Of a DNA stretch of 50,137 nt, positions 602 through 47,599 are shown piece by piece. This stretch comes from an uncultured Pseudomonadota bacterium (GTDB lineage Bacteria > Pseudomonadota > Alphaproteobacteria > RUG11792), in contig CADBWU010000004.1 in the NCBI GenBank assembly GCA_902798535.1, positions 1 through 50,137 on the forward strand, given 5' to 3'. Numbering within the stretch: position 1 is the first letter of the stretch; each line of letters starts with the position of its first letter. The notes under the pieces are model-generated. The model was not told where the DNA came from. It saw only the letters and a program-made list of their open reading frames with translations, and did no database searches. The translations under genes were made by a program, and so were the position numbers.

Positions 602-2404
602 CTAGATTATATCTTTTCTTCCTGATGTGGGTAGCCAGGAGGCAAGTAACTGTTTTGAAGAAGCAGATATCATATGCGTTTTGATGAACGAATTTATAGA
701 AACAATGTCTGAAAGATATTCATTTATAACGGCACAGATAAGGTAAGTGAACGCAGAATTCTCCTCATCAGTTTCGATCGTTATGTTTTTGCCTTTGACA
801 AAGCCACGCCATGCATCAGTGCCAAAACGTTGCACTGCATTCTCAATATTGATAGATTTGATTCCATCGAATAATTCACAAACTTTTCGTTCATTTCCTG
901 CGGAAAATATTTCTGCAACTTTTCGTATTGAACAGAGTAAATTTTGAGCATTTGCAATGCTAATGTGAGTCGAACTGAGTTGTGAAATCAAATTCCAAAG
1001 CGTTGTTGTTCCTTCAATAAGAGACACAGGTTCTGTTGTTTTATGCAGTAATGTTGCATGGTATCCAGCTGTTTCTAGACTATCTACATAAAATCTTGAT
1101 AAGACAGGAATACCGCTGGTATCATTGCGATTTGTGCACAGGGTTTTTGCATACACAACATCTGCATAGATATTATGTGGATTCATTTTTGTATCAACAA
1201 GGGAAATGTATACGTCATATCCCTTTAAATTTCGAATTTCTGACGATTCTTTAGAATATAGCCAATACAAATCATGAACGACGTTGGTATCTGAATCGAC
1301 CGTTAATGAAAAATAAGGTTGGATTATTTCATCTTCCTTAGTCTCATTATTTATGATATGCAATTCTGAAATTGAATGAATTTCAAGAGTTTTATCTCTA
1401 GCTTGATCTGCAAGCAGTAAATATTTTGGTTGTGTCCCATCAAACCTAAATGGGTCGGATGTAATCGGAAACAAATTAACAATAGGAGTTGCATTCAGAA
1501 TTATAAAATCGTTATTTACCACTTGAAATAAGTGTTCATCTGATATCGTTACATCAATAATTAGCGATAGTTCATCAATATTCTTTATTCCAGTTTCTGC
1601 AAGTAGTTTTCCCAAATTCATTATTCGGAAAAACATGAATTTTTTCTTAAAATGCAAAATTTCTTGAAAAAGTTGAAAACAATTTGTTGAATATGGAGAT
1701 ACAGGACAAACCGTTTCATCAGGAGAAAAACCACAAGGAAATATATTTTTTAAATCCAGATTAAATCGTTGATTTTTAACATCAACAAATACAGTCCGTT
1801 TTGGATTTGAAAAAATTGACTCATATAACATCAGAGCATTTTCAGTAATATCTGAATTTATATAAAATAGCAAATCGTCTATTTGCAATTGCTCGATAGG
1901 AACAGAATTAGTTTTAATTTTTAATTCAAGGCACCATCCATCATCTCCTCCTATTTGTTTCGAAACTTTTAGAAAGCTGATTTGACTAATGGAAATTGGA
2001 TATATTACAAGAGGATAAAGCGTTCTGAATTGACACTCTGCTCCATTTTTCGATTTTACAAAAAGATTTGTTCCTTTATTTATTTTGATAGGGCTTGATA
2101 CTGAAACATTATCTTCGGATTCAAATCTAGCAATACTGCAAGGTGGAAAAACGTTAATTAAATTTGGATACAAAGCGGAAAGCAAATGAAATGCTATATT
2201 TTGGGCATTGTCATCAATCCTTTGTGCCAATTTTGCGGACATAAAGGCGACTGATTCGATCAACCTTTCTGTGTAAGGATCCGTAGATTCACCGTCTTTT
2301 ATATCAAGTTTGCTAGCTATTTTAGGGTGTTGTTTAGCAAACTCTCCACCTTTTTCCCTCAGTGAAAGTAATTCATTCTGATAATATTTTAAAAAAGTTT
2401 TCAT
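602..2404 (-). CDS. tssF: Type VI secretion baseplate subunit TssF
   Basis: TssF (VasA/ImpG family) forms, with TssE, TssG and TssK, the baseplate wedge from which the contractile sheath of the type VI secretion system assembles at the inner membrane. The 600-residue length is normal. The N-terminus is diagnostic: a YYQNELLSLREKGGEFAKQHPKIA stretch (roughly residues 7-30), then DPYTERLIESVAFMSAKLAQRIDD and HLLSALYPN, all standard TssF positions. In most clusters tssG follows immediately. Here the downstream neighbours are two tRNAs, and no tssE, tssG or tssK is seen nearby, so the gene is detached from any cluster in view. No clear ribosome binding site precedes the ATG. The only other type VI part in the window is vgrG at 45.5-47.6 kb. 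Confidence 0.92.
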   Translation of the reverse strand: MKTFLKYYQNELLSLREKGGEFAKQHPKIASKLDIKDGESTDPYTERLIESVAFMSAKLAQRIDDNAQNIAFHLLSALYPNLINVFPPCSIARFESEDNVSVSSPIKINKGTNLFVKSKNGAECQFRTLYPLVIYPISISQISFLKVSKQIGGDDGWCLELKIKTNSVPIEQLQIDDLLFYINSDITENALMLYESIFSNPKRTVFVDVKNQRFNLDLKNIFPCGFSPDETVCPVSPYSTNCFQLFQEILHFKKKFMFFRIMNLGKLLAETGIKNIDELSLIIDVTISDEHLFQVVNNDFIILNATPIVNLFPITSDPFRFDGTQPKYLLLADQARDKTLEIHSISELHIINNETKEDEIIQPYFSLTVDSDTNVVHDLYWLYSKESSEIRNLKGYDVYISLVDTKMNPHNIYADVVYAKTLCTNRNDTSGIPVLSRFYVDSLETAGYHATLLHKTTEPVSLIEGTTTLWNLISQLSSTHISIANAQNLLCSIRKVAEIFSAGNERKVCELFDGIKSINIENAVQRFGTDAWRGFVKGKNITIETDEENSAFTYLICAVINEYLSDIVSINSFIKTHMISASSKQLLASWLPTSGRKDII

Positions 2405-11291: not shown

Positions 11292-11912
11292 CTATATTGC
11301 AGAAAGTTGTTTTATGACTGAGGAGCGGTAAAAATTTTCAATGCTCGTTAAGTTTTTTGCGATTATTTGCGCAGATGTTTGCAGGAGCTGATATGCGTTT
11401 TGCCGAAATTGAATTGAGGATAGCAGTGAAGGTATGTCAGAGCAGTTATCTATTGCTGGAAGATTGCACATATTCGTGTTAAAGCCAATATCTGCTAGTA
11501 AGTAGAGTTCAAAATATACGTAAAGAAACAATATATCTACCGAGTTAAAGTTTTGAAGATTTGTTGACACATAGTTGGTTAGCTTAAACACTTGTGTATC
11601 ATTTGCATTTTGTGGCAATAATTTGTCTAGGAGAAAGCAAATACTTTGACATACCAGTAGGTGATTTCCAAGATGTATGGAGGCTATCCAAGTGGGCTTT
11701 TCAGATAATAACTTCCAAAATCCTAAGGAATCAGGTTCTCGTGATGTGTAGGCTATGTTAACTTGTGCAAGATTTGTAAACGTTGGTGATTTGTTTTTAT
11801 AAGCTAGCGCGTGCACTTTTCCATGGTTCTGCGTTAATATATTGACTATTTTGTATTTTTCTCCACGTGATACAGCGGATAAAACTATGCCAAAATCCTG
11901 CCAAGATATCAT
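11292..11912 (-). CDS. recO: DNA repair protein RecO (short form)
   Basis: RecO anneals single strands and, with RecR, loads RecA on SSB-coated DNA. The N-terminal OB fold is clear: WQDFGIVLSAVSRGEKYKIVNILTQNHGKVHALAYKNKS, which matches the family's GIVL...GE...I...LT..HG....G. The helical part is divergent, and the protein is 206 residues against about 240 usual. The cysteine-containing zinc region and the SPKSGRAV-type tail of alphaproteobacterial RecO are not evident. It starts within the end of ftsI (4-base overlap), so it is the last gene of the rsmH-ftsL-ftsI-recO unit. The call is secure on the N-terminus, less so on full function. Confidence 0.8.
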   Translation of the reverse strand: MISWQDFGIVLSAVSRGEKYKIVNILTQNHGKVHALAYKNKSPTFTNLAQVNIAYTSREPDSLGFWKLLSEKPTWIASIHLGNHLLVCQSICFLLDKLLPQNANDTQVFKLTNYVSTNLQNFNSVDILFLYVYFELYLLADIGFNTNMCNLPAIDNCSDIPSLLSSIQFRQNAYQLLQTSAQIIAKNLTSIENFYRSSVIKQLSAI

Positions 11913-27077: not shown

Positions 27078-27241
27078 TTTCCCAATATCCATCCAACTTA
27101 ATGACTTGAGTCTATGAAAAAAATGTAAAAAAAAAGTTAACGTGCAATGAAAAGCTAGGTATAGGAAATACTTGATGTTGGTTAATTTTCATAATATCAT
27201 CGATTACGATGGAGCAAAGCTGGTCTCGCAGTGAATACGTT

Positions 27242-28207
27242 ATGTTAACAAATAAGCACAAATCGATCGGTATATTAGGTGCTGGAGCCTTTGGAACTGC
27301 TTTGGCTTTTGCTTATCATCGTGATTTTTCCATAACTCTATTTTCCTGCTTTGAGGAACACGTGGCTTCGATGCAGCAAACCAGGATCAATGAATTTTTT
27401 AAAAATTTTGAAATACCTGAAGAAATTGCATTAGATGTGACCGCTAATTTAGGTATGCATCACTATGATTACTTATTTTGGACTTTGCCAATAAAGCCTA
27501 CTCCTGATATACTCGAGCGTCTCAAATCGTTGATAAACGGAACTCCTGTAATAATATGTTCAAAGGGATTATTGCCAGATTCATCATTCATTTGTGATTT
27601 ATTTCAGAGAACGCTTACTGAGTCTAAGGTTGGATACCTTGCTGGCCCTAATTTTGCAGTAGAATTAGCAATGGATAAGCCCTCCGTTGCAGATATAGCA
27701 TTCCAAAGTATGAGTGTATCACACATATTTGCGGCCGAGCTCTCAACGAAGACATTCAAACTAAAGCCAATTGACGATATGATTGGCGCGCAAATTTCAG
27801 GAGCTATGAAAAATGTTATAGCAATCGCTTCAGGGATAGCATACGGACTAGGTTTGGGGGAAAATACTCATGCGGCGTTACTTACTATGGGAATTGCTGA
27901 GATGGAACGCCTCGGTATGTCCCTTGGAGCAAAGAAGGAGACGTTTTACGGTTTCTGTGGATTAGGCGATTTGATAATGACAGCTTCAAGCTCAAATTCA
28001 CGAAATACTTTGCTTGGCATGGAATGTGCAAAAGGAAAATCTATTGGTGAGCTTGTGCAGAATGCGACTTGTGAAGGGTATGACACACTTTCTCAGGTGG
28101 TCGAACTAGCTCATCAAAAGGGGCTTGAGTTACCTATTTGTGAGGCCGTATATAAAGTTTTTTTTGAAGCGCAGTCGCCTAGCATAATACTCGATGTCTT
28201 TGAATAG
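27242..28207 (+). CDS. gpsA: Glycerol-3-phosphate dehydrogenase [NAD(P)+]
   Basis: Reduces dihydroxyacetone phosphate to sn-glycerol-3-phosphate, the head of phospholipid synthesis. The nucleotide-binding fold is IGILGAGAFGTALAFAY near the start. Further motifs are VIICSKGLLPDS, YLAGPNFAVELAMDKPS, and the substrate/catalytic region GAQISGAMKNVIAIASGIAYGLGLGENTHAALLTMGIAEM. I place the start at the ATG at 27242; an ATG at 27209 is in frame and would add 11 residues. Neither has a strong ribosome binding site. The 3' end overlaps the next gene by 14 bases, opening a gpsA-addB-like-tpiA-ispG run. Confidence 0.95.
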   Translation: MLTNKHKSIGILGAGAFGTALAFAYHRDFSITLFSCFEEHVASMQQTRINEFFKNFEIPEEIALDVTANLGMHHYDYLFWTLPIKPTPDILERLKSLINGTPVIICSKGLLPDSSFICDLFQRTLTESKVGYLAGPNFAVELAMDKPSVADIAFQSMSVSHIFAAELSTKTFKLKPIDDMIGAQISGAMKNVIAIASGIAYGLGLGENTHAALLTMGIAEMERLGMSLGAKKETFYGFCGLGDLIMTASSSNSRNTLLGMECAKGKSIGELVQNATCEGYDTLSQVVELAHQKGLELPICEAVYKVFFEAQSPSIILDVFE

Positions 28208-29942
28208 AATTAGCAAAATTGAGCGTATTGCTATCCTATCTCAGTTAGTCGCAAAGTATTGTGTAAGTGCTGATATTGTTGAAACTGTTCGTTTGGCAAA
28301 AGATTTAGCAAACGTCATAGATGAACTGAACTATATGAGCGTTGATCTTTCTGAGCTATCGCGTGAGTTTTTAAATTTCTTTCCAGAACATTGGAAGCAA
28401 CGTACACAATTTTTGTTGATTGTAACAAAATACTGGAAGGAAATTTTGAAGGAACGTAATCTCGCTGATGTTGAAGTTTCTCAATGGCATAAACCAATAA
28501 TTTCAAATCCAGTTCAACATGATTTCGATTTATTTCGCAAAGTTTCTATATGTGAAAACAAAAATATCTATGATGAGATAGATCTCGTGATAAAAATTAT
28601 CGAAGAATCTGGTGGCGAGAGAATATCAATTATTTCTTCAAATCAAGATTTTTCCAGATATTTGAGTATGAGATTTGATGCTGAAGCAATAAAGTATATT
28701 TCGCATTGTGGACGCAGTGTCCCATCACAGGAGGTTATAGATAATGTGAATAAAAATTTTAACAATTGCTCAAAAGATGAATTAATGAGACTTGCCAAAG
28801 AGCTTTCTGACATTGTTGCAGATGATATAACGAATGATATTAATGCATCATATAAGGTTTTGTTGGTAACTCCGGCAGAAATTTATAAAATTCCTCGAAA
28901 TGAGTGGACGATATACACTGAATTGAACGAAAATATGTGGAAGCCTAGGGACGCCGGCTACTTTTGGTTGCATTACACTTTGCGAAAGAAATTAGGTTTG
29001 TTCCGAGATGCAAGTTTTATGGAGAACTTATTCTATTATGGAATTAAAGTGAGTCAAAAAATTTATCTTCTAAGAGCTCTTAAATCTGAAGGTCGAAATA
29101 ACAAAAAAAGCTCTATATTGACCAAATTTGAAACAATTGCAGAAAAATATGGAATTACGTTAGATTTTTTGCATCCAAAACAAGAAGTGAAACAATGTAA
29201 AAACATACAAGAGCCTCTGATATTTAAGTTGCCAAAAGAGCTTGATGTTTGGGGTGTTGAGTTGCTGGCTCGAGATCCACATGCTTTTTTTGCTAGGAAT
29301 ATTTTGGGAGTGCATCCGGAAGCGTTTGCCCCCAAACGACAAGAAATTAAGAAACTTCTGAGACAAATGGTAAAGCATCATTTTAAGAATCTAGGTGTTG
29401 AATCATTTCTTGAGTCTTTAAAAAAATTGGACTCATTTGCATACTATAAGGCATTGCAACTGATGGATATTTTGAAAAAAAACAGTTTTGATGTCCGTCG
29501 TTCATACAATGATATTTATGGAAAGATTGAACTTCCTGAGATTTGTATCTCTCTTTCTGGCAAAGCAGATAGGATTGTTGACAATGGCGAGTATTCTACC
29601 CTGGTCTGTTTCCGTTATTCGGCTAGCCATTCGGCTAAAGAAATTATCTATGATGGATGCTCATCTGTTCTTTCTCTCTGTTTGATTGCAGAAAATTACG
29701 GATTTGGGGAGGATATAAAACCAATTAGAAACATTAAAATCTGGAACTTGATGGCAAGCGAAGAATGTAAAATTTTTGATAAAGAAATAGAAATTTCAAA
29801 AGAGATTTTGGAGGATTTTTCGAAACGTTTGTTCTCAAGCCTGAAACCTTATTTGTATGGGCAAGCTGTTGAAATTGATTGTAACTCGGGACGAAAAGGG
29901 CTATACAATGATGAATATGAGCATTTCAAAAGGGCTTTATGA
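28194..29942 (+). CDS. AddB-like recombination protein, shortened, nuclease motif altered
   Basis: Alphaproteobacterial AddB is the helicase-like/nuclease subunit of the AddAB double-strand-break repair complex, about 1000 residues. This protein has 582. Residues 30-95 (LAKDLANVIDELNYMSVDLS, then FPEHWKQRTQFLLIVTKYWKEIL) match the AddB AEHWQ region. Near residue 350, ELLARDPHAFFARNILGV matches the RDPYAIYAR segment before the nuclease domain. In the nuclease itself SGKADRIV keeps the ADRI part, but the catalytic D-Y-K-T-G is replaced by C-F-R-Y-S. The N-terminal 100 or so residues of AddB are absent. It overlaps gpsA by 14 bases and tpiA by 4. No addA is in the window. Identification is from remembered family motifs; an eroding or non-catalytic AddB is my inference. 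Confidence 0.65.
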   Translation: MSLNRISKIERIAILSQLVAKYCVSADIVETVRLAKDLANVIDELNYMSVDLSELSREFLNFFPEHWKQRTQFLLIVTKYWKEILKERNLADVEVSQWHKPIISNPVQHDFDLFRKVSICENKNIYDEIDLVIKIIEESGGERISIISSNQDFSRYLSMRFDAEAIKYISHCGRSVPSQEVIDNVNKNFNNCSKDELMRLAKELSDIVADDITNDINASYKVLLVTPAEIYKIPRNEWTIYTELNENMWKPRDAGYFWLHYTLRKKLGLFRDASFMENLFYYGIKVSQKIYLLRALKSEGRNNKKSSILTKFETIAEKYGITLDFLHPKQEVKQCKNIQEPLIFKLPKELDVWGVELLARDPHAFFARNILGVHPEAFAPKRQEIKKLLRQMVKHHFKNLGVESFLESLKKLDSFAYYKALQLMDILKKNSFDVRRSYNDIYGKIELPEICISLSGKADRIVDNGEYSTLVCFRYSASHSAKEIIYDGCSSVLSLCLIAENYGFGEDIKPIRNIKIWNLMASEECKIFDKEIEISKEILEDFSKRLFSSLKPYLYGQAVEIDCNSGRKGLYNDEYEHFKRAL

Positions 29943-30604
29943 TTAATAAATTGATTGTCGGAAATTGGAAAATGAATGGAAATTTATCTTTGGTTGATGA
30001 ATTTTCTCAAACTCTAGATGCACGAGTTATCTTGGGAATTCCAAGTGTTTTTATTGCATATGCTCATTTGAAGAATCCAACTATGCAGATTGCGGCTCAA
30101 GATTGCTCCGTATATGCAGATTTTGGAGCACATACTGGTGAAATTTCGGCGGAGATGCTTTCACAAGTTGGTTGCAAATACGTCATTATAGGACATAGCG
30201 AACGGCGACAAACATCAAATTTTGATAACCAGCAAAATGTTTTTGCAAAATTGCAGAATGTCGTTAAGACCGGGATGACAGCAATTATTTGTATTGACGA
30301 AAGTTATCCGGCACTTGTGGATAATCAAACAAAGGAGTTTTTGAAAACAAATCTAGACAAAGTGTGCATAGCGTATGAACCGCTTTCTGCCATAGGAACC
30401 GGAAAGGTTCCATCCTTGAAGGATATATCTGAAACATTGTCTAAAATAAAGAACACTTATTTTGGAGTGAAAACTCTGTATGGGGGGAGTGTCAATGTAT
30501 CGAATGCAAAAGAAATTTTATCTGTTGAGTTAGTCGATGGTGTGCTGATTGGGGGGGCTAGTTTAAAACTCAGTGAATTGAATGAAATTGCGAGATTGTC
30601 TTAA
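29939..30604 (+). CDS. tpiA: Triosephosphate isomerase
   Basis: Interconverts dihydroxyacetone phosphate and glyceraldehyde-3-phosphate. Catalytic residues are all present: the lysine in GNWKMNGN (K11), histidine in VIIGHSERRQ, and glutamate in CIAYEPLSAIGTGKVPS (usually AYEPVWAIGTG). The phosphate loops LYGGSVNVSNAKEIL and DGVLIGGASLK follow. 221 residues is short against about 250, with trimmed loops rather than missing motifs. Its ATG overlaps the preceding stop by 4 bases. Together with gpsA it links triose phosphate to lipid precursors. Confidence 0.95.
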   Translation: MINKLIVGNWKMNGNLSLVDEFSQTLDARVILGIPSVFIAYAHLKNPTMQIAAQDCSVYADFGAHTGEISAEMLSQVGCKYVIIGHSERRQTSNFDNQQNVFAKLQNVVKTGMTAIICIDESYPALVDNQTKEFLKTNLDKVCIAYEPLSAIGTGKVPSLKDISETLSKIKNTYFGVKTLYGGSVNVSNAKEILSVELVDGVLIGGASLKLSELNEIARLS

Positions 30605-45490: not shown

Positions 45491-47599
45491 TTAGTTCAGC
45501 TTTACCATAGCTCCTTGAAGGGCAACTCCTGCCGTGCCTTGAAGTTGCAGCATCGCAGTAGATTTTATGGTGGCAACAGCATTTGCAGAAAGATTCAAAG
45601 TGGCTTTTGCATTAACCTTGATAGCAAGCCCATCAATTTGAACATTAGTTTTTGCATCACATTTGAAACTCAAAGCAATCAATTCCAATGTATTTTTTGC
45701 ATTCGCGGAAAGTTTTGAACAATCCATTTTCAAATCATTAGTAGCATTTATATCTATTGTATTGCTTGAATTCAGCGTCATTTTCTTTCCGGATTTTAAG
45801 CAAAACTCCCCATCGGTTTCTATGCTAATGTTTTTTGTGGATTTTATAGAAATTTCACCAGTAACATCTATTTTCAAATTTCCCTTTGATAAAGTGATGG
45901 TCTGATTTCCTTCTTTTAAGGTAATCGACTGGTTGCCTTTATCAAGCATGATAACATAATCACCTTCATTTAGTATTAGGCTATTTTTCCCTTTTTTTAT
46001 CGTCAATGAATTTTCGGTAGGGTCTTTTTGTGATTCTAAAACAGTCTTTTTTGAACCTTCCATCAACACTTCTCGAACACTATTTTCAATTATCAAATTC
46101 ATATCTTTTTGCGCATGTATGAAAATTTCCTCCTCATCCTTCTCGTCATTAAAACTCAATTCATTAAAGCCATTTTCTGTCTGCAATGAATTTGTGCGAA
46201 ATGACGAGACCGCTTTGTTATCCTTGGCGTATTCAATCGCTTTATTCACACCATTGTATAGGCATCCAACCACTATAGGTTGATCCGGGTCTCCATTAAT
46301 AAATTGAACCAAAACTTCCATACCGACGCGCGGAACTATTAGAGAACCAAAATTATTGCCAGCCCATATTTGAGCTGTTCTGATCCAACAAGAACTGTTT
46401 TCATCTTGTTTAGTACGCGAATCCCAGTGAAATTTTACTTTTATCCTGGCGTTGCTATCACAAAAAATCTCCTCATCTGAAGTCCCGTTTACTAACGCTG
46501 TTTGGCATCCGAAAATCCTGTTTTTGAAATGAGTTTGTGCAGGTCTAAATGGGACATTGCTTGGGATAGCAACGAATGAATTATAATAAATCGGAGTATC
46601 AGTTGTATTTGGAATCTGATTGATATAATGCTTTACTGATATTGTTAAAAATTCTCCGTTGTGTTTTTCTACTTTTGAGCCCGAGAGCGAGAAAATAGAA
46701 CCTGCGTAAACTTCTGGGCAATATGAATTTCCAACTAATTTTTTTGTCAGGCTGTTTTCTTCTTCAAACATGATTTTTGTTATATCGTTTCCTGCATTTT
46801 TTTCACTAAATGAAGGGTCATATATTTCTTTCTCGGCAAATTTTGTCTTGTCTCGAGAGTCAGAATATGCGCCAGAAATAACCTCAGATTTTGCATCACA
46901 GTATGAATATGCTTCCACCTTTTTGGTTCCAATGGAATCAGAAAATGAGACGTTATAAACGGAATCCGGTGTAATAGTTGCGTTTGTTGAATATTGTCGA
47001 ACTTTTAGCTCGGTTTTGATCCTTTTGCACGTTGCGCCAATATCTGATATTTGGAGAATATCCTTGTTATTTTTGTGTTCAAAACAATAGAATATCCCTT
47101 CCTCTTCCATCAGACGGGATATAAAATGAAAATCACTTTCCCCATACTGTACGCAGAAAATGCGCCTGTTTCTTGTCTGATTGTCTATGTTCATCTGTGT
47201 ATTTGTAATACTGTTCTCTTTCAAAAGGCTACAGACTATATCGAGCGCTGTTTGTTCCTGAAATGCTCTATATTTTTTTGTATATTGCATACGAGCTAGG
47301 GTTGGAACTAGTCTGATGTATAGAATATTTCCATTATTTACTTCGTCAGTGCTTACTACATTTTCGAAAGTTGCCTGCTCGATTATACCAGAGAAATATC
47401 GTATGTTTTGTTTGTCTATTTCTATGGATATGGTAGCTATGGTGTTTAGGAGTTTTTCTGTGTCAATTTGTTCCATCGTTTGAAGGTATATATCTGCATG
47501 AAAAAGATTAGACATTTGCTCATCTATTTCAGCTCTAATGACAAGAGCATCGGAAATTAATGCGTTATGTATATGCACTATGTATCTATCTTCGCTCAT
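45491..47599 (-). CDS. vgrG: Type VI secretion spike protein VgrG
   Basis: The trimeric tip of the type VI tail tube, homologous to phage gp27 and gp5, fired into target cells. 702 residues. The gp27-like part includes IVHIHNALISDALVIRAEID and YGESDFHFISRLMEEEGIFYCFEH. The gp5 OB fold has RIKVKFHWD, CWIRTAQIWAGNNFGSLIVPRVGMEVLVQFINGDPDQPIVVGCLYNG. The last 200 residues are the beta-helical needle of short alternating repeats (QSITLKEGNQTITLSKGNLK, then many valine/alanine-alternating turns). It ends MVKLN with no attached toxin domain. No other type VI gene is adjacent; tssF is 43 kb away. Confidence 0.95.
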   Translation of the reverse strand: MSEDRYIVHIHNALISDALVIRAEIDEQMSNLFHADIYLQTMEQIDTEKLLNTIATISIEIDKQNIRYFSGIIEQATFENVVSTDEVNNGNILYIRLVPTLARMQYTKKYRAFQEQTALDIVCSLLKENSITNTQMNIDNQTRNRRIFCVQYGESDFHFISRLMEEEGIFYCFEHKNNKDILQISDIGATCKRIKTELKVRQYSTNATITPDSVYNVSFSDSIGTKKVEAYSYCDAKSEVISGAYSDSRDKTKFAEKEIYDPSFSEKNAGNDITKIMFEEENSLTKKLVGNSYCPEVYAGSIFSLSGSKVEKHNGEFLTISVKHYINQIPNTTDTPIYYNSFVAIPSNVPFRPAQTHFKNRIFGCQTALVNGTSDEEIFCDSNARIKVKFHWDSRTKQDENSSCWIRTAQIWAGNNFGSLIVPRVGMEVLVQFINGDPDQPIVVGCLYNGVNKAIEYAKDNKAVSSFRTNSLQTENGFNELSFNDEKDEEEIFIHAQKDMNLIIENSVREVLMEGSKKTVLESQKDPTENSLTIKKGKNSLILNEGDYVIMLDKGNQSITLKEGNQTITLSKGNLKIDVTGEISIKSTKNISIETDGEFCLKSGKKMTLNSSNTIDINATNDLKMDCSKLSANAKNTLELIALSFKCDAKTNVQIDGLAIKVNAKATLNLSANAVATIKSTAMLQLQGTAGVALQGAMVKLN

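Follow-up and report, generated by a model that had tools for sequence, protein, structure and literature searches.

The window analysed here, the whole stretch of 50,137 nucleotides, belongs to a genome (G000) of 945,849 bases in 61 contigs that is 94% complete. On the plus strand it carries a short addB gene of 582 codons (28194..29942), which overlaps the upstream gpsA (27209..28207, +) by 14 bases and the downstream tpiA (29939..30604, +) by 4 bases. The frame is open throughout, in good agreement with an earlier note on this DNA that had called it intact and embedded by overlaps between its two neighbours; gpsA and/or tpiA adjoin addB in 25 of the 29 loci of the family as well. On the minus strand lies recO (11292..11912), a candidate RecA-loading helper, which is matched by PF11967 with 34.9 bits (cut-off 27) and by PF02565 with 24.9 bits (cut-off 22.1), and weakly by TIGR00613. 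Type VI secretion genes, encoding TssF (PF05947) and a VgrG-like spike (PF05954, PF04717), were observed at 602-2404 (-) and 45491-47599 (-).

The short gene product is a homologue of AddB. It had been described as AddB-like, and the profile search agrees: the model NCBIfam TIGR02786 (addB_alphas) matches with an E-value of 1.9e-17 and 62.7 bits, a score far under the curated equivalog cut-off of 486.5. The match is made up of three stretches, the best of which places residues 6-95 on positions 99-198 of the 1024 model positions. A Pfam search of the protein gave nothing above the cut-off. The earlier note had further reported a missing N-terminal region. Compared to full-length relatives, about 85 N-terminal columns are indeed gone, yet this is not the sole loss, and two large internal blocks are absent too.

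An AlphaFold model of the short AddB reached a mean pLDDT of 76.5 and a pTM of 0.48, the latter leaving the packing of its domains unsure. Foldseek returned AddB of Bacillus subtilis (4ceh_B) as the top PDB match of the model (E 5.5e-10), with RecC next. VIA-align also put 4ceh_B first (Z 17.0, 516 residues aligned), with a deviation of 16.1 A that presumably reflects a different placement of the domains. Model residues 4-330 superimpose on residues 112-648 of UvrD (Z 16.8, 247 aligned, 4.2 A), and the region of residues 1 to about 330 (28194..29183, +) resembles the helicase-like domains 1B and 2A. With the UvrD domain limits as we take them to be, we infer that domains 1A and 2B were lost while 1B and 2A are left. 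Residues from about 348 to 564 (29235..29885, +) superimpose on the RecE exonuclease 3h4r (Z 12.9, 195 aligned, 3.4 A), and in the predicted structure the PD-(D/E)XK-like nuclease fold is retained despite the loss of catalytic residues. A sequence-profile search of solved structures with the short AddB gave nothing relevant, and thus the evidence for the fold comes from the predicted model. The C-terminal tail Y-x-H-F-x-R (residues 575-580; 29916..29933, +) is kept from full-length AddB, where it reads Y-x-H-L-x-R. The model match to B. subtilis AddB starts only at residue 82-83, and F68, which binds Chi in the B. subtilis protein (PMC4824097), lies before the matched part. Part of the Chi-reading region would therefore be missing, and Chi reading of the known type is probably lost.

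At residues 472-476 (29607..29621, +) the sequence C-F-R-Y-S takes the place of the nuclease motif D-Y-K-T-G, just as the earlier note had claimed; in alignments with intact relatives, C-F-R stands at their D-Y-K. R-G-x-x-I-H has likewise lost its His, and P-Q-L its Q. An alternative D...E-x-K triad, named beforehand as evidence to the contrary, is absent: an aligned D/E-x-K occurs in none of the 32 readable family rows, i.e., the 28 rows of the nuclease alignment plus L209, L210, L212 and L213. L025 was left outside the 28-row motif counts, since a different contig holds its C-terminal half, which was read separately as L209. Within these 28 rows the His is lost throughout, D/E at the D-Y-K place is missing in 26 (one D and one E remain, both without K), K is kept in four, all without D/E, and 27 have another residue in place of the P-Q-L Gln, which L012 retains. 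The replacements at the His and D/E-x-K sites differ from row to row. The Asp of A-D-R (residue 459 in the window protein, and its counterparts) is retained in 26 of the 28 rows. Full-length proteins present a different picture. D-Y-K-[TS]-G was found in all of the 30 best-scoring full-length AddB loci of the class, which are a favourable sample, and the set G, H, D, D, K is complete in 12 of 12 full-length rows of the nuclease alignment and, for the nearest named outgroups, in all 12 readable rows out of 13. Another 22 rows, 20 of them readable, come from other lineages that are reduced or divergent; 17 of these hold both D and K, and the exceptions are L159 (N-F-K), L163 (D-Y-T) and L161, a row to be disregarded because it is not a proper AddB nuclease stretch. 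L159 (genome G185, N-F-K-T-G) and L163 (G165, D-Y-T-T-G) may mark separate losses of the nuclease in families other than this one.

The short AddB is fixed in its family. It is present in 32 of 35 family genomes, including every one of the 20 with a completeness of at least 90%; protein search found it in 29 genomes and 18 of 20 genera, and profile search added three more genomes (G032, G033 and G034). In the 29 genomes of the protein search the addB loci have open frames with no internal stops. The protein and profile searches gave no convincing match in G002, G005 and G013, which are 61-78% complete, and a match in G002 at E 0.0025 was taken as chance. An order-level search returned the same 35 genomes, none of which reaches the curated cut-off of TIGR02786. 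Among the named relatives, identity to the window protein is 78% for RUG11852, 74% for RUG14192, 50% for RUG11420 and 39% for RGIG4847, the latter a roe deer rumen MAG; 'Holosporales bacterium' MAGs are also among them. Judging from the isolate names, the RUG MAGs are presumably of rumen origin and the Holosporales MAGs presumably from termite guts. Across the wider class, AddB is matched in 170 of 190 genomes, with 144 of the 190 exceeding the TIGR02786 cut-off, and AddB of relatives outside the family is ~1000 aa long with an intact active site.

Several of these loci carry related in-frame inserts of ~45 residues (L130:5361-5495, L129:2346-2507, L017:3105-3224, L160:2500-2628). In two genomes that share a genus the insert lies inside addB, at a different position in each, and in a third genome it lies beside addB. 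A further copy, with 58% identity, sits in a locus from a different family (f25), and L129 has two more partial copies. RPE are a known class of mobile repeats that are tolerated within proteins, and the insert looks like a repeat of this or the WPE kind. A search for an inverted-repeat structure in the inserts gave nothing clear. WPE-like sequences were described in addA and addB of Wolbachia (PMC4224334).

The partner subunit AddA is encoded on a separate contig of the same genome (G000:C19; TIGR02784, E 2.5e-119). Its addA gene counts 841 codons from stop to stop and, as read from the sequence, adjoins a spoT/relA-like gene; addA and addB thus do not form one operon here, while in outgroup loci that hold both genes addA is found just behind addB. 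The product ends 33 residues past motif VI. TIGR02784 matches at E <1e-30 in 31 of the 35 family genomes, including the 20 most complete. The four genomes without a strong match are 63-86% complete and show weak, UvrD-type-helicase-like matches (E about 1e-8 to 1e-11). None of the listed family matches reaches further than position 898 of the 1138 model positions. In 15 loci where motif VI has the standard form and the stop can be seen, our own counted once, the tail past this motif measures 17-48 residues, compared to 256-312 residues in all 25 loci outside the family with the stop in view. L035, L045 and L054 have a variant motif VI that was missed by the search pattern, and their AddA stops at most a few dozen residues further on; in the remaining loci of the 30 in the family, the available sequence breaks off before the stop. 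All 30 have an intact Walker A. Family AddA hence keeps its motor motifs, and the whole C-terminal nuclease domain is absent, which leaves about 750-840 aa versus ~1130 aa with an intact site outside the family. Class-wide, AddA was found in 52 of 58 genomes, 39 over the cut-off, and mostly matched up to position 1138. With AddB dead and the domain absent from AddA, the AddAB of this family is without any nuclease domain, and the meaning of the locus shifts from one dead subunit to a complex without nuclease.

In the AddA tree the family (f1) forms one clade with support 100/98, and G040, a genome of another family (f7), branches elsewhere on a long branch; a nuclease loss shared by the two is unsupported by this tree. 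The tree suggests that the AddA nuclease domain was probably lost more than once, the long branches calling for care. G040 (loci L219 and L164) has an AddA of 768 codons without nuclease domain and an AddB that keeps D-Y-K, i.e., a natural AddAB with one nuclease. L220 (G051, f18), from a 0.6-Mb genome where no AddB was found, holds an AddA-like frame of 726 codons that ends soon after motif VI. The portions of two Holosporales papers available to us (PMC11724238, PMC11909080) contain nothing on AddA.

A search with PF12705, the RecB-type nuclease domain, gave no match in 32 of the 35 family genomes, our own included, and matched in 12 of 14 control genomes. The three matches in the family (G029, G022, G008) do not provide a plausible family-wide stand-in nuclease: the main match in G029 is a helicase-nuclease gene beside a restriction-type methyltransferase and looks accessory, that in G022 is a fragment of 230 aa where a contig ends, and that in G008 is the dead AddB itself. 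G029, a member of the same genus, has two UvrD-like helicase genes on different contigs (L182, L185), one with an intact-looking nuclease domain, either accessory or a contaminant. Genes for RecJ, RecR and RecO are present in our own genome. RecJ was found in 32 of the 35 family genomes and 19 of the 20 most complete, the search giving no match in G004 (96% complete), a genome with both AddA and AddB. RecR occurs in 25 of the 35 (16 of the 20 most complete) and RecO in 26 (15 of the 20).

The likeliest reading, which we hold to be probable, is a natural nuclease-free AddAB that unwinds DNA without cutting and hands over to RecJ. AddA would act as a motor without nuclease domain. AddB, shortened by almost half and left with a single one of its catalytic residues, keeps a helicase-like part and the nuclease fold and might serve in a RecC-like manner as scaffold and strand guide for this motor. 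The complex would open broken DNA ends by unwinding, RecJ would trim the 5' strand in trans, and RecO and RecR would load RecA, likewise in trans. Complex formation, unwinding, the hand-over to RecJ and the loss of Chi control are all parts that we infer. A few observations speak against this reading. RecJ is absent in G004, and the searches for RecR and RecO gave no match in four and five of the 20 most complete genomes, respectively, so that RecJ and RecO/RecR are not the whole story everywhere. The genes addA and addB lie apart here, although a survey had them together in 13 of 13 proteobacteria (PMC1193525). Finally, a purely structural fold would give no obvious reason to keep the Asp of A-D-R.

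That G004 keeps addA and addB without RecJ, together with the patchy RecO and RecR, would fit a nuclease-free AddAB with a non-resection job, such as a motor at stalled forks or the clearing of proteins from DNA, which has no partnership with RecJ. This is the main rival, and we regard it as rather unlikely, since all but one of the 20 most complete genomes have RecJ. Another view is that AddAB recruits a different nuclease in trans and remains a helicase-nuclease. The search covered one nuclease family, PF12705, which leaves some room for such a recruit, but the genes it detected look accessory in two of three genomes and are the dead AddB in the third, which makes this an improbable account. 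The Asp retained in 26 of 28 rows might also hint at an AddB that still cuts DNA via non-classical residues; we give this hardly any credence, as His and D/E-x-K are lost throughout and their replacements vary between rows.

One may also regard addB as a functionless relic on its way out of a reduced genome. The genome has only 0.95 Mb, almost half of the AddB protein is gone, and in reduced genomes of isopod Wolbachia the addA nuclease was lost through a stop codon (PMC4224334). Against this stand the open frames and wide presence of the short AddB in the family, and its purifying selection. Nei-Gojobori point estimates of dN/dS for the window addB are 0.174 versus RUG11852 and 0.191 versus RUG14192, and 0.173 and 0.210 after residue 345, in the dead nuclease half. 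The same comparisons gave 0.152 and 0.126 for gpsA and 0.115 and 0.146 for tpiA; ispG, compared with RUG11852 only, had 0.080. The addA gene (own versus G028) has 0.165, similar to addB. Without selection, a divergence of 0.7 substitutions per site should have produced about 69 nonsense changes in addB. We therefore deem a decaying relic very unlikely, and recent decay is rejected on the family-wide fixation and the dN/dS values. Of the two explanations offered by the earlier note, selection for a non-nucleolytic role thus gains support, while the second, a recent loss in which the frame survived by chance, is not supported.

To return to the unwinding complex that works with RecJ, it can be put in more general terms: a pared-down AddAB, lacking a nuclease and probably free of Chi control, may serve a whole family of gut-associated alphaproteobacteria as the principal motor for unwinding DNA ends, the exonuclease being separate as in eukaryotic Sgs1-Dna2 or BLM-EXO1. 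The fusion of motor and nuclease would then be something that nature can undo, with the remaining complex staying under selection. We see about even chances for this broader statement. If true, it lets one test in a natural setting what use the motor has by itself, why a fused nuclease can be given up as genomes shrink, and how AddB can turn RecC-like, a step in the route from AddAB to RecBCD put forward by Rigden (PMC1185551). A complex free of exonuclease might also leave linear phage DNA alone. Nuclease-dead RecBCD as a laboratory tool and the dead nuclease domain in RecC are already known; the literature searched, open-licence papers only, yielded no natural nuclease-free AddAB or RecBCD.

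Among known systems, the alphaproteobacterial AddAB (TIGR02786 / TIGR02784) shares the motor motifs of AddA as well as the helicase-like stretches, the nuclease fold and the C-terminal Y-x-H-x-x-R of AddB. It differs in its adjacent genes and in size, with an AddB of about 1000 aa versus a dead one of 582 here, and an AddA of about 1130 aa versus about 750-840. RecC of RecBCD is likewise an AddB-type subunit, whose inactivated nuclease-like domain guides a strand (PMC1185551); it is about twice as long, and its partner RecB keeps a nuclease, unlike AddA here. Six isopod Wolbachia strains provide another AddA without nuclease in a reduced alphaproteobacterium, a stop codon removing the domain (PMC4224334). 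There, the change is an addA stop in six strains, with no addB nuclease loss reported in the portions of that paper available to us, whereas here both subunits are affected family-wide. Comparable to the proposed mode of action are nuclease-less motors that work with RecJ and RecFOR. In E. coli recB1080, which has neither nuclease activity nor RecA loading, repair relies on the helicase together with RecJ and RecFOR and comes at a cost (PMC3375238). In P. syringae, RecB without the nuclease domain restored resistance to UV and mitomycin, and extra RecJ brought the cold growth of recB-delta-nuc back to the wild-type rate (PMC2828478). These motors are engineered and, in E. coli, less fit, whereas the loss described here is fixed in a family of 20 genera.
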